DNA of 29,819 nucleotides from the IMG/VR virus record IMGVR_UViG_3300022200_003502, positions 1 to 29,819 of that record; one strand, given 5' to 3'. Positions 15,317-25,534 of this stretch are shown here, piece after piece (within the stretch, counting starts at the first letter, position 1; every line of letters begins with the position of its first letter). The translations under genes were made by a program, and so were the position numbers. The stretch comes from a virus. Below the pieces are notes generated by a model. That model was given only the letters and a program-made list of their open reading frames with translations. It made no database searches and was not told the origin of the DNA.

Positions 15317-16366
15317 ATGCCTATTTATGACCGCGGTAATAGTTTTGAAGTTTGTATTGGTAGCGGAGAGAATCGCTTCAGGAAGAGCTTTAAATCCAGA
15401 GATGAAGCAGAGAAAAGCTTTAACTTAGAGATGGCAATACGCAAGGGTGTCGTTAAGTCTTCACAATCGACTCAGGAGCGATGCAAAGCTACTACCGTAG
15501 GCAAACCTATAGGTAACACTTTAAAAGATGCCTATGACATCACAGTGAAAGACACATGGTCTCAGAATAAATCTACAGCACATGTGAAGACCGCTGGCTC
15601 AGTCTTGAAGTTCTTCGGTGGCTCTATTCCTGTTCAGTCGATCACCTCTATACTTATTCGTGAGATGGTAGAGGAATTTGAAGATGATGGTAATGCTGGA
15701 GGTACTGTCAATGCGAAAATATCAGCTCTATCTATGATGCTTAAGACTTCCGCAGCTGAGGGCTGGATTGATTCCATACCTTATATGAAACGGAGATCAG
15801 CAGGTACGCATAGAATCCGCTGGATGGATGCAGAGGAAGAGCTTAAGGTATTAGCTACCTGTGAAAAACTTGGGCTATACAGCCTAAGAGATTTTATTAT
15901 TGTTGCAGTTGATACAGGCTTCAGAAGAATGGAGTTACTAGACTTCCAAGTAAAGGAGTTTAGAAATGGAATGTTGGGGCTTCACCCAGATGAAACTAAG
16001 ACATCTAAAGCTCGAGCAGTACCAGCGACAAATAGAGTAGAGGCAATCATAGAAGAACGCTGGGATAACACTAGGTTATTTGATGATTTGACAGTAGCTA
16101 CACTAAGGTCAAACTGGGCATTACTTAGAGAAACCTTAGGTCTACAAGAAGATTCACAGTTTGTTGTTCACAGCCTTAGACACACCTGTGCAAGTCGAAT
16201 GGCAATGCAGGACAAGACTGCGGAGTTCATTCAGAAATGGATGGGTCATGCCTCTCCATTGACTACAGCACGTTACATGCACTTGGCTCCGAATAAATTA
16301 TTAGAAGGTAAATTAGCGTTAGATGCCTACAGAGAAAGCTTCAAACCAAGGCTTAAACTGGCATAA
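15317..16366 (+). CDS. int: Tyrosine recombinase integrase
   Basis: The 349-residue product has an N-terminal arm-binding-like domain (residues 1-45), a core-binding SAM-like domain (about 65-160) and a catalytic domain. Catalytic motifs are DTGFRRMELL (first Arg), VHSLRHTCASRM (His-x-x-Arg), WMGHASPLTTARYM (His and the nucleophile Tyr). AAAGGA precedes the ATG. It would recombine attP with a host tRNA gene; a tRNA-Leu 3' fragment lies 100 bases downstream. Integrases occur in some marine T7-like phages but not in T7 itself. The regulator just upstream suggests one operon. Confidence 0.93.
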   Translation: MPIYDRGNSFEVCIGSGENRFRKSFKSRDEAEKSFNLEMAIRKGVVKSSQSTQERCKATTVGKPIGNTLKDAYDITVKDTWSQNKSTAHVKTAGSVLKFFGGSIPVQSITSILIREMVEEFEDDGNAGGTVNAKISALSMMLKTSAAEGWIDSIPYMKRRSAGTHRIRWMDAEEELKVLATCEKLGLYSLRDFIIVAVDTGFRRMELLDFQVKEFRNGMLGLHPDETKTSKARAVPATNRVEAIIEERWDNTRLFDDLTVATLRSNWALLRETLGLQEDSQFVVHSLRHTCASRMAMQDKTAEFIQKWMGHASPLTTARYMHLAPNKLLEGKLALDAYRESFKPRLKLA

Positions 16367-19638: not shown

Positions 19639-20253
19639 ATGCAAATGGCAACAGAGAAAACACCAAACTTCACAACACCTAAGGGTATCGCAAAGTACCC
19701 TTGGTTAAACACCCCAGACACAAAGTTCAATCCAGATGGTGACTTCAAAGTCACTATCGTACTGGGTGCAGACGAAGCTGCTCCTATTATCAAGTTCTTG
19801 GATGAACGTCTCGAAGCTTCAATTGCACGAGCTAAGAAAGAAAATGTAGGTAAGAAGATTCGTGAGGCAGACCCTCCTTATAAAACCAATGAAGAAACTG
19901 GTGAGGTAGAGGTTACCTTCAAGATGAAAGCTAAGGTAAACATGAAGAATGGAGATAGCTTTGAACAGAAACCAGCAATCTTTGATTCAAAACTAACACC
20001 ACTTAAGAATGTAAATGTTGGCGGTGGTAGCACTATCAAAGTCAACTATGAGTGCTTTGGTTTCTACACCTCAATGATTGGTGCTGGTGTATCCCTACGT
20101 TTGAAAGCTGTACAAGTTCTTAATCTTATTGAATTCTCAGGTGGTGCCAGTGCATCAGCTATGGGCTTCAAACAAGAAGAAGGCTTTGAGCAAGACGTAG
20201 AAGACACACCATTTAATAGTGATAGCGGAACCTCAGATGAAGAAGACTTCTAG
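19639..20253 (+). CDS. Single-stranded DNA-binding protein, T7 gp2.5-like
   Basis: The 204-residue product has the T7 gp2.5 plan: TPKGIAKYPWLNTPDTKFNP at the N-terminus, an OB-fold core with VTFKMKAKVN and KVNYECFGFYTS, and a strongly acidic tail ending DEEDF. The acidic, Phe-ended tail is the part that contacts the polymerase and primase-helicase in T7. AAAGGAAA five bases upstream supports the ATG at 19639 over the one at 19645. The 3' end overlaps the endonuclease gene by 17 bases. Confidence 0.92.
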   Translation: MQMATEKTPNFTTPKGIAKYPWLNTPDTKFNPDGDFKVTIVLGADEAAPIIKFLDERLEASIARAKKENVGKKIREADPPYKTNEETGEVEVTFKMKAKVNMKNGDSFEQKPAIFDSKLTPLKNVNVGGGSTIKVNYECFGFYTSMIGAGVSLRLKAVQVLNLIEFSGGASASAMGFKQEEGFEQDVEDTPFNSDSGTSDEEDF

Positions 20254-20650
20254 TAGCTTAAGTAGGATAGCCCTCGCAAAGGGTTATCGCTCAGGACTAG
20301 AAGTTGAAATAGCAGAAAAACTCACCTCTCAGGGGGTGAGTTTTGTTTATGAGGGCATGGTCATTACTTACACAAGACCATCTAAAGACCATAAGTATCA
20401 CCCAGATTGGGAGCTACCGAATGGCATCGTGGTCGAGTCCAAAGGTAGATTTCTTACCGCAGATCGACAGAAGCATCTTCTAGTTAAAGCACAACACCCA
20501 GAGATAGACCTAAGGTTTGTCTTTTGGAATTCTAAACAACGTATCTCTAAACTTAGTCCAACTACTTATGGGATGTGGTGTAACAAACATGGTTTTATAT
20601 ATGCCGACAAGAGCATTCCAGATTCTTGGATAAAGGAACAAAAGAAATGA
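20237..20650 (+). CDS. Endonuclease I (Holliday junction resolvase), T7 gp3-like
   Basis: The 137-residue product keeps the gp3 active site: SGLEVEIAEKL with the first Glu, then HPDWELPNGIVVESKG carrying Asp, Glu and Lys. It cleaves branched DNA and helps break down host DNA and resolve concatemers. The ATG at 20237 lies within the SSB gene; a GTG at 20219 is in frame but has no better ribosome site, and only a weak GCGGAA lies before the ATG, so coupling is likely. Length is close to T7 gp3 (149). Confidence 0.9.
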   Translation: MKKTSSSLSRIALAKGYRSGLEVEIAEKLTSQGVSFVYEGMVITYTRPSKDHKYHPDWELPNGIVVESKGRFLTADRQKHLLVKAQHPEIDLRFVFWNSKQRISKLSPTTYGMWCNKHGFIYADKSIPDSWIKEQKK

Positions 20651-23050: not shown

Positions 23051-24367
23051 ATGACACTACTATTCGATTTAGAAACCAATGGACTTCTCAATGAAGTCAC
23101 AGAGATACATTGTATTGTCGTTAAAGACACAACCACAGGTAAGGTAGATACCTTTACCAGTGCTGAGAACACCATTGAATATGGTCTAGACTTCTTAGTA
23201 AAAGCTCAGGATATGGGAGCATCCCTCTGTGGTCACAATGTAATCAAGTATGACATACCAGTAATCAACAAGCTGTATCCTCATGTTGATATTAAAGAGG
23301 CTGGTGTAATAGATACCTTAATCCTAGCTAGACTCCTAGAGACTACCGTTAAGGAAACAGATTTAAAATTAATGAAAGAAGAAATACTCCCAAAGAAATT
23401 CTATGGTTCACATAGTCTTGCTGCATGGGGTCACCGCTTAGGTAATTACAAGGGTGACTATGCTGGTGGGTGGGAGACATTCACCCAAGCTATGCTTGAC
23501 TACTGTATTCAAGACATTGAAGTTACCCATAGTCTTCTACAAAAGTTGACCAAAGATGACAATCCCCAAGATGCAATTAGTATGGAACATCAGATCGCAT
23601 GGCTCATGGCAAAGCAAGAACGTAACGGCTTCTGCTTCAATGAGAAGGGCGCAGTAGTTCTCTATACAACCTTAGCTAAACGCAGGGGTGAGCTTGATGC
23701 AGAGCTTAGGGAATACTTTGGTTCGTGGATAGTTAAGCTTCCTGACTTTATACCCAAGAGAGACAACAAGACCTTAGGTTATAAGAAGGATGTGCCTGTC
23801 CCTAAAGAGAAGGAGATTATGTTTAACCCTTCCTCAAGAGACCACATCTCCAACAGGTTAATTACCTTATACACATGGGTACCAACAGAGTTTACTGAAG
23901 GTGGTAAGCCACAGGTTGATGAGGTCATCTTAGGTAAGCTTCCGTATCCACCTTGTAAGTTACTAACCGAATACTTAACAGTCCAGAAACGTATCTCTCA
24001 GCTATCTGAGGGAGATCAAGCATGGATGAAACTATCTAAGAAAGGAAAGATTCATGGGAGTGTTAACACCAATGGTGCTGTTACTGGTAGGGCTACCCAC
24101 GCTTATCCAAATATTTCTCAGGTTCCTTCTGGTGGGTCACCTTATGGTAATGAATGTAGAGAGTTATTCGTAGTGCCTACAGGATGGACATTGATGGGCG
24201 CAGATGCTTCAGGCTTAGAGCTTCGATGTCTTGCACACTTCATGGCTAAATATGATGGAGGAGCCTACGGTGAAGCACTACTGAATGGGGATATTCATAC
24301 GACCAATATGGTAGCCGCAGGTCTCACCTCAAGACCACAAGCAAAAACTTTTATATACGGATTCCTT
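23051..24367 (+). CDS. DNA polymerase, exon 1 (family A, T7 gp5-like)
   Basis: These 439 codons encode the 3'-5' exonuclease domain (FDLETNG with Asp6 and Glu8, CGHNVIKYDI, YCIQDIEVT) and the polymerase palm up to motif B. Motif A is MGADASGLELRCLAHFM with catalytic Asp385. The reading runs into a stop at 24368-24370 in the middle of motif B (RPQAKTFIYGFL), so the gene is not complete without the second part at 25052. The mature protein would be 439 plus 160, that is 599 residues, shorter than T7 gp5 (704). The 5' exon ends in T, as group I introns require. TGGAGAG precedes the ATG. Confidence 0.95.
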
Positions 24368-25051
24368 TAATTTATGGAGGAATTAAAACTGTGTGAACTC
24401 AGGGAACATCTCTCGTAGACAATCCTGAGCCAAGCTTATACTCAGTCGCACTCCCCAACAAAGGAGAGCAGTGACAACAATCTATTTAAATAGGAATAGA
24501 AAGCAGTGCTTAATGACAGCCAATGCTTCTAAGTATCCACAAGGCTTTTTCAAGCCAAAACCCTGTAAAAAATGTAGTACAACTTTCCAACCCAATGCCC
24601 CATCACACAACTACTGTTCTCAAACATGTGCAGATTATGCACTTGTTTCTGCTTATCTAACTCGTAACTATGGCATAACTTATGGTGACTACCAGAGGAT
24701 GCTTGAGGAGCAGGGGGGTAGGTGTAAGTTATGTAATGGGGATGGCTTTGTTATGGACAAAAACAAACACAAATTAAAACTTGTTGTTGACCATTGCCAT
24801 AAAACTGGAGCGGTTCGTGGGCTGTTATGCCACAACTGTAATAGAGGATTAGGTTTATTTAAAGACAACCACAACACTTTACAGAGTGCGATTGAGTATT
24901 TGAAGGTGCAACGACTATCCCGAAAGGGAGTACACCCAAGTGGGTGGAAGCGCACAGCCTCAGAAATGAGTGATGAGATAGTCTGCTCTGCATAGTGATA
25001 TGCAGCTGCCGAAAGGCGGGGGAGAAATAACGACTCTCCTCGAACACAAGG
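24368..25051 (+). ncRNA. Group I self-splicing intron in the DNA polymerase gene
   Basis: The 684-nt insertion separates FIYGFL from YGAG, contiguous in T7 polymerase. The exon end ATTCCTT (24361-24367) pairs with GAGGAAT (24377-24383) to form P1, with the required U-G pair at the splice site; the intron ends in G (25051). CTCAGG/CCTGAG (24398-24403, 24424-24429) encloses AGACAAT, like the T4 td intron core. P7 is GACTAT/ATAGTC (24913-24918, 24978-24983). Hairpins CCC-GAAA-GGG (24919), CACCC/GGGTG (24933), GCATA-GTGA-TATGC (24990) and GCC-GAAA-GGC near 25007 fit P7.1, P7.2, P9 and P9.1 of subgroup IA. Introns in polymerase genes are known from SPO1-like and some T7-like phages. Confidence 0.93.
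24471..24995 (+). CDS. Intron-encoded His-Me homing endonuclease, endonuclease VII-like
   Basis: The 174-residue product has a treble-clef zinc finger at the N-terminus (CKKCSTTF with a second pair CSQTC) and an endonuclease VII/HNH-type domain. That domain shows YGITYGDYQRMLEEQGGRC, a CxxC pair, LVVDHCHKTGAVRGLLCHNC and NRGLGLF. The Asp-His-x-His core is the metal-binding catalytic centre. It would cut intronless polymerase genes and spread the intron. The start is GTG with AAGGAG five bases upstream; an ATG at 24513 is the alternative. Its 3' end runs through both strands of P7, so coding and ribozyme sequence overlap. Confidence 0.85.
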   Translation: MTTIYLNRNRKQCLMTANASKYPQGFFKPKPCKKCSTTFQPNAPSHNYCSQTCADYALVSAYLTRNYGITYGDYQRMLEEQGGRCKLCNGDGFVMDKNKHKLKLVVDHCHKTGAVRGLLCHNCNRGLGLFKDNHNTLQSAIEYLKVQRLSRKGVHPSGWKRTASEMSDEIVCSA

Positions 25052-25534
25052 TATGGAGCAGGAGATGGAAAAATTGGCTCAATCGTTAATGGAACTGCAA
25101 GTGTGGGAAAGAAACTCAAGGCTAAGTTTCTACGTTCACTACCTGCCCTCGGAAGACTTAGTGAAGCTGTCAAGGCAGCCGCTGGAAGAGGTTACCTCAC
25201 AGGGATTGATGGTAGAAGACTGCACGTTCGTTCTTCACACAGTGCATTAAACACCTTACTTCAAAGTGCAGGTGCTCTTGTCTGCAAGAAGTGGTTAATC
25301 ATCCTAGAGGAAGAACTGCAGAAACTAGGGTTGACCCATAGCTGGGAAGGGGACTATGCATTTTGTGCATGGAGCCACGATGAAGTACAGATCGCTTGCC
25401 GTGATGCTGAAATAGCTACAGTCGTAGCTGAAGTAGCAACAAGGTCAGTAGCCCTAGCAGGGGAACACTTCAACTTCAGATGTAAGTTAGCAGGTGAATC
25501 CAAGATAGGGAAAACATGGCGTGACACTCACTAA
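25052..25534 (+). CDS. DNA polymerase, exon 2 (family A, T7 gp5-like)
   Basis: These 160 codons resume with YGAGDGKIGSIVNGTAS, the second half of motif B, and go on to DGRRLHVRSSHSALNTLLQS and motif C AWSHDEVQ with catalytic Asp549 of the spliced protein. The order and content match the C-terminal half of T7 gp5 without loss. Without splicing no start codon with a ribosome site is seen here. It ends 14 bases inside the following small gene. Confidence 0.94.
   Translation, partial: YGAGDGKIGSIVNGTASVGKKLKAKFLRSLPALGRLSEAVKAAAGRGYLTGIDGRRLHVRSSHSALNTLLQSAGALVCKKWLIILEEELQKLGLTHSWEGDYAFCAWSHDEVQIACRDAEIATVVAEVATRSVALAGEHFNFRCKLAGESKIGKTWRDTH

Follow-up and report, generated by a model that had tools for sequence, protein, structure and literature searches.

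A group I intron carrying an Endonuclease VII-type gene in the DNA polymerase gene of an environmental T7-like phage

Introduction

Is the 684-base insert that splits the DNA polymerase gene of an environmental T7-like phage a splicing and mobile intron, or does it mark a broken gene? The insert lies in the IMG/VR virus record IMGVR_UViG_3300022200_003502, whose 29,819 nucleotides are referred to here as the window. A plus-strand block of the window encodes an integrase, a T7-type RNA polymerase, a gp2.5-like protein, endonuclease I, an amidase, a primase-helicase, the DNA polymerase, thymidylate synthase, an exonuclease and ribonucleotide reductase, and the T7-type RNA polymerase, gp2.5, endonuclease I, primase-helicase, DNA polymerase and exonuclease follow in the order that identifies a T7-like phage (phrog_414, 112, 945, 239, 107; PF05367). 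Among cultured phages, the RNA polymerase of the window comes closest to those of Bordetella phage BB8 (61% amino acid identity) and a Limnohabitans phage (51%). The integrase gene (15317–16366) lies upstream of that for the RNA polymerase and is of the tyrosine type (PF00589), suggesting that this T7-like phage can integrate.

Results

The insert lies within motif B of the polymerase

The polymerase gene and its insert are arranged as follows:
23051–24367, plus strand: DNA polymerase exon 1, 439 aa, comprising the exonuclease domain and the polymerase up to L529 in T7 numbering (PF00476 and RNase H-like matches)
24368–25051, plus strand: group I intron of 684 bases, opening with UAA and ending in G (RF00028, E = 1.6e-6; empty-site relatives; covariation)
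25052–25534, plus strand: DNA polymerase exon 2, 160 aa, from Y530 (PF00476; alignment with T7 DNA polymerase)

Exon 1 ends with the residues KTFIYGFL and is followed by the stop codon UAA (24368–24370), while exon 2 opens with YGAGDGKIG, the first residue of which aligns with Y530 of T7 gp5 (704-aa numbering). The insertion is located between codons L529 and Y530, at a point that we take to be equivalent to Y766 of E. coli Pol I. A sequence-only reading of this DNA had placed the stop after motif B; the joint falls inside the motif rather than beyond it. From the DNA, the exon/intron boundary is ambiguous by one base, with a T present at both ends, and the U·G and terminal-G rules select 24368–25051.

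The insert has the architecture of a group I intron

The following ribozyme elements can be assigned:
24360–24384, plus strand: P1, formed by exon nucleotides 24360–24367 and the intron guide 24377–24384, with the pair U24367·G24377 at the splice site (sequence; compensatory change in L016, a relative described below)
24389–24395, plus strand: 5′ strand of P3, partner 24951–24957 (96% paired in 86 cores)
24398–24429, plus strand: P4 enclosing P5, with P4 pairing 24398–24403 and 24424–24429 (P4 nearly invariant, P5 covarying)
24913–24983, plus strand: P7, P7.1, P7.2, the 3′ strand of P3, and P8 (RF00028 alignment; P7.2 covaries); P7 pairs 24913–24918 with 24978–24983 (GACUAU/AUAGUC), P7.1 is CCC-GAAA-GGG and P8 spans 24959–24970 with a GAAA loop
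24984–25051, plus strand: P9 region, with P9, P9.1 (GCC-GAAA-GGC, 25008–25017), P9.2 and the terminal G25051 (sequence; kept in L016)

The splice-site U·G pair, terminal G, P1, P7 and GNRA-capped hairpins listed in the sequence-only reading are therefore all found, with GAAA capping three of the hairpins (P7.1, P8 and P9.1). The intron, having P7.1 and P7.2, probably belongs to an IA2-like subgroup; no obvious P10 pairing was seen in the window intron.

The covariance-model search that the same reading had proposed gave a divided answer. In a relaxed scan of 901 bases, RF00028 matched 24358–25005 (33.1 bits, E = 1.6e-6), whereas an Rfam scan of the whole window at gathering score, which is 50 for RF00028, returned no match. 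With the same model, the introns of LUZ24 (40.8 bits) and Bas93 (43.9 bits) likewise remain below the gathering score, Vi06 scores 32.1 and L016 70.7 bits, and the intronless relatives L013 and L014 give no match. In the RF00028 alignment, the P6 region of the window intron contains 467 inserted bases. Because L016, from which most of the endonuclease gene has been deleted, reaches 70.7 bits and gene-bearing introns stay below 50, the low score of the window intron is probably due in large part to the big inserted gene; gene-carrying introns of this type drop below the Rfam cutoff.

For covariation, 86 related cores were drawn from public phages and from IMG/VR, in part with an RNA pattern overlapping P7 and P7.1. 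P3 is paired in 96% and has double changes in six of its seven pairs, and the covariation in P5, P6, P6a and P7.2 exceeds that of shuffled and slid controls by a wide margin. P4, P7 and P7.1 are nearly invariant, such that P7 and P7.1 contribute no covariation support. P8 is 59% paired in the alignment as given, where its register is off, and 90% paired when shifted by one base. P6a of the window intron has two U·U mismatches in the register used.

Relatives with and without the intron

Relatives in IMG/VR, obtained through exon-2 and RNA-pattern scans, include both forms of the site. L013 lacks the intron and runs through the site with a gap of 0 nucleotides, with 89% and 94% amino acid identity to exons 1 and 2, respectively, and the joined window exons are 90% identical to it across the 160 bases around the joint. 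L014, L015, L017 and many other IMG/VR relatives are also gapless through the junction, so that what is exon 1 and exon 2 in the window forms one uninterrupted frame, and the polymerase of BB8 is a single uninterrupted gene. The proposed 684-base insert, with an in-frame stop and resumption at the very next residue, is thereby borne out.

At the identical site, L016 (3666–4000) contains a 335-base version of the intron in which the endonuclease gene is cut to a short remnant. In its P1, one exon A and the intron U that pairs with it have changed to U and A, respectively, a compensatory exchange. The ribozyme parts of L016 are 96% and 91% identical to those of the window, whereas the exons reach merely 69–71%, a contrast that fits transfer between phages or strong constraint on the RNA. 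Related introns at the same polymerase site in L053 (3236–4000) and L102 carry endonuclease genes of other, non-Endo VII kinds, pointing to inner genes that were swapped or a site that was invaded repeatedly. An intact Endo VII gene at L529^Y530 was found in this record only, in a search that was not exhaustive. No co-conversion tract is visible at third codon positions around the insertion.

These comparisons bear directly on whether the polymerase is instead broken, or made as two separately translated halves that assemble, with the insert left unspliced. In such a transcript the stop would lie exactly at the junction, a GTG-started ORF does exist inside exon 2 (25103–25534), and several public records annotate the two polymerase parts as separate genes. 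However, a product starting at GTG 25103 would be without Y530 and the initial residues of the second half, removal of the insert restores the frame exactly as in intronless relatives, and the insert is filled by a covarying group I core. Moreover, both exons are under purifying selection, with dN well below dS relative to L013, and are thus kept as protein. On the grounds of restored frame, covarying core and purifying selection we reject the broken gene, and hold this whole alternative to be highly improbable. The preference of the sequence-only reading for a splicing intron is accordingly well founded, since intronless relatives with a 0-nucleotide gap and a same-site intron in L016 make chance resemblance or a broken gene very unlikely. 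Taken with RF00028 and PF02945, sequence comparison upholds the proposed intron with its endonuclease VII-like ORF and confirms 24368–25051 as a group I intron in a T7-type DNA polymerase gene.

The inner gene encodes a DHHRN-type endonuclease

Three further features concern the inner gene:
24471–24995, plus strand: Endonuclease VII-type (DHHRN) homing endonuclease gene, GTG start, 174 aa (PF02945, 4e-23; PHROG endonuclease VII families)
24445–24475, plus strand: hairpin pairing most of the Shine-Dalgarno sequence GGAGAG and the GTG start of the inner gene (−9.8 kcal/mol, z −2.7)
20219–20650, plus strand: T7-type endonuclease I gene, the candidate for the phage's own resolvase (PF05367, 4.5e-54)

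The GTG start lines up with an ATG in L016, and the 3′ end of the ORF overlaps P7, P3, P8 and P7′. PF02945 (Endonuclease_7, 4e-23) matches at residues 70–152 of 181, placing the motif in the C-terminal part of an ORF inside the intron. All hallmark residues of the DHHRN homing-endonuclease family, namely CxxC, DHxH, R and CxxCN (PMC6083498), are present (GRCKLC ... VVDHCHKTGAVRGLLCHNCN). We do not regard the tail past residue 152 as a real domain: the gene of Kpp-61 ends there, and the additional residues of the window protein probably reflect read-through of ribozyme core sequence.

The intron could also splice and yet not be mobile at present, the inner protein being mainly a Holliday-junction resolvase or an inactive passenger. 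This alternative would accord with the protein's membership of the Endo VII superfamily and with L016, where the endonuclease gene has decayed and the ribozyme has been retained. Against this, the inner ORF is intact and retains every catalytic residue, and the substitutions that separate it from homologues fall mostly at third codon positions. The alignment with T4 Endo VII is weak and restricted to residues 80–143 (E = 0.026); neither the full-length T4 Endo VII alignment nor the N-terminal motif by which an Endo VII resolvase is recognized was found. Instead, the motif occupies the C-terminal part, a position shared with the homing clade described previously (PMC6083498). Furthermore, because the phage also encodes T7 endonuclease I, homing appears likelier than resolution, and the argument that an own endonuclease I makes a resolvase role unnecessary has been applied to podoviruses before (PMC6083498). 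A resolvase role is rejected on the basis of the own endonuclease I, the C-terminal motif and the weak T4 Endo VII match, and we consider a currently immobile intron with either kind of inner protein to be unlikely.

A search of IMG/VR with the endonuclease gene found no relatives. The tree of these genes is mostly unresolved, with good support for two of its 12 inner branches, and gives no indication of which insertion site is ancestral. Endonuclease VII-like sequences were also seen directly upstream of intronless polymerase genes in three contigs (L018, 114–419; L049, 2356–2604; L062, 2425–2655), and these are possibly free-standing homing endonucleases.

A hairpin covers the endonuclease start

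The hairpin over the ribosome-binding site probably holds back translation of the inner ORF from the long transcript, by analogy with T4, where hairpins limit endonuclease translation and protect splicing and where the I-TevI ORF of td extends into the core (PMC2988022). Hairpins, though with other sequences, also lie ahead of the Endo VII genes in L016, Bas93, Kpp-61, Jarilo, LUZ24 and Ab02. In a wider survey with start sites chosen by a simple rule, a hairpin was present in 12 of 15 distinct cases, a rough count, and absent in L111, L116 and L173. We see about an even chance that Endo VII-armed and related introns have repeatedly targeted motif B of T7-type polymerases and that, at the same time, the ribosome-binding site of most such Endo VII genes is concealed in a hairpin with differing bases and the pairing kept. 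If so, hidden ribosome-binding sites would be a shared translational switch of the Endo VII homing family.

Discussion

Comparison with known polymerase introns

The sequence-only reading had suggested that a T7-like phage with an endonuclease VII-type enzyme may be a new variant. Rather, this combination is already known, T7-like phages included, because the published cases (PMC6083498) and the records of Jarilo, IME184, Kpp-61, Bas93 and Bas94 share the layout. In Yersinia phages Berlin and YpP-G and Pseudomonas phage LUZ24, as in the window, an Endo VII-motif protein is encoded within a group I intron of the DNA polymerase gene (PMC6083498), and those of Berlin and YpP-G were placed in the homing-endonuclease clade of that study. 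LUZ24 resembles the window in having a polymerase group I intron with an Endo VII-motif protein (gp35, 51% amino acid identity), but differs in that the insertion is inside the Tyr526 codon, 11 nucleotides upstream of the window site, and the ribosome-binding site lies under a longer, unrelated hairpin. Pectobacterium phage Jarilo (Studiervirinae), Klebsiella phages IME184 and Kpp-61 and Escherichia phages Bas93 and Bas94 also have DNA polymerase genes that contain an Endo VII-type gene (54–61% amino acid identity over the matched part), and the Bas93 polymerase is annotated as a joined CDS. The insertions in codons F524 (Jarilo, Vi06), Y526 (LUZ24, Bas93) and F528 (IME184, Kpp-61) and at L529^Y530 of the window all fall within 16 nucleotides.

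F-CphI of cyanophage S-PM2, the founder of the DHHRN family, shares the catalytic residues and the C-terminal motif, but is a free-standing gene beside the intron-bearing psbA, outside any intron. The polymerase introns of SPO1 (I-HmuI), Bastille (I-BasI), Pf-WMP3 (I-PfoP3I) and PhiI/W31 (I-TslI) similarly carry a homing gene, but of the HNH type and at other sites, those described earlier being 674, 676 and 881 in E. coli numbering (PMC3428280). The Pf-WMP3 intron opens with UAA, as does that of the window. T4 td/I-TevI shares the ORF reaching into the 3′ core and the ribosome-binding site in a hairpin, and differs in its GIY-YIG enzyme, its thymidylate synthase gene and its T4 late promoter.

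Proposed mechanism

We regard the insert as very probably a group I intron that is mobile and most likely splices itself, with a DHHRN homing endonuclease. From the anatomy, the empty and occupied sites, the covariation and the catalytic residues, all read from sequence, we infer splicing, cleavage with homing, and translational control as follows. The transcript would fold, with the U·G pair of P1 defining the 5′ splice site; a guanosine bound at P7 would attack after U24367, and exon 1 would then attack after G25051, thereby joining 24367 to 25052 and giving back YGFL-YGAGD. In an unspliced transcript, translation would end at the intron-opening UAA before Tyr530, and no complete polymerase could therefore be made. 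In mixed infections the DHHRN enzyme probably cuts intronless polymerase alleles near the conserved motif, and repair of the cut allele would copy the intron in. Restraint of inner-ORF translation by the hairpin would keep ribosomes off the 3′ half of the ribozyme that the ORF overlaps, comparable to T4 td/I-TevI.

The window provides another clear example of an Endo VII-armed intron in a polymerase gene. Since one close relative lacks the intron and a sister intron at the identical site has lost most of its endonuclease gene, intron gain, loss of the endonuclease gene and the empty site are all visible in environmental phages. The additions are modest: the exact insertion site, the natural deletion derivative and the recurring hairpin over the endonuclease ribosome-binding site.

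Several phage records list such interrupted polymerases as two genes; in public records L002, L003, L004 and L006, the exons are annotated as separate DNA polymerase genes. We also note five IMG/VR contigs (L207, L211, L143, L147 and L101) that each contain two related group I cores within approximately 0.5–2 kb.
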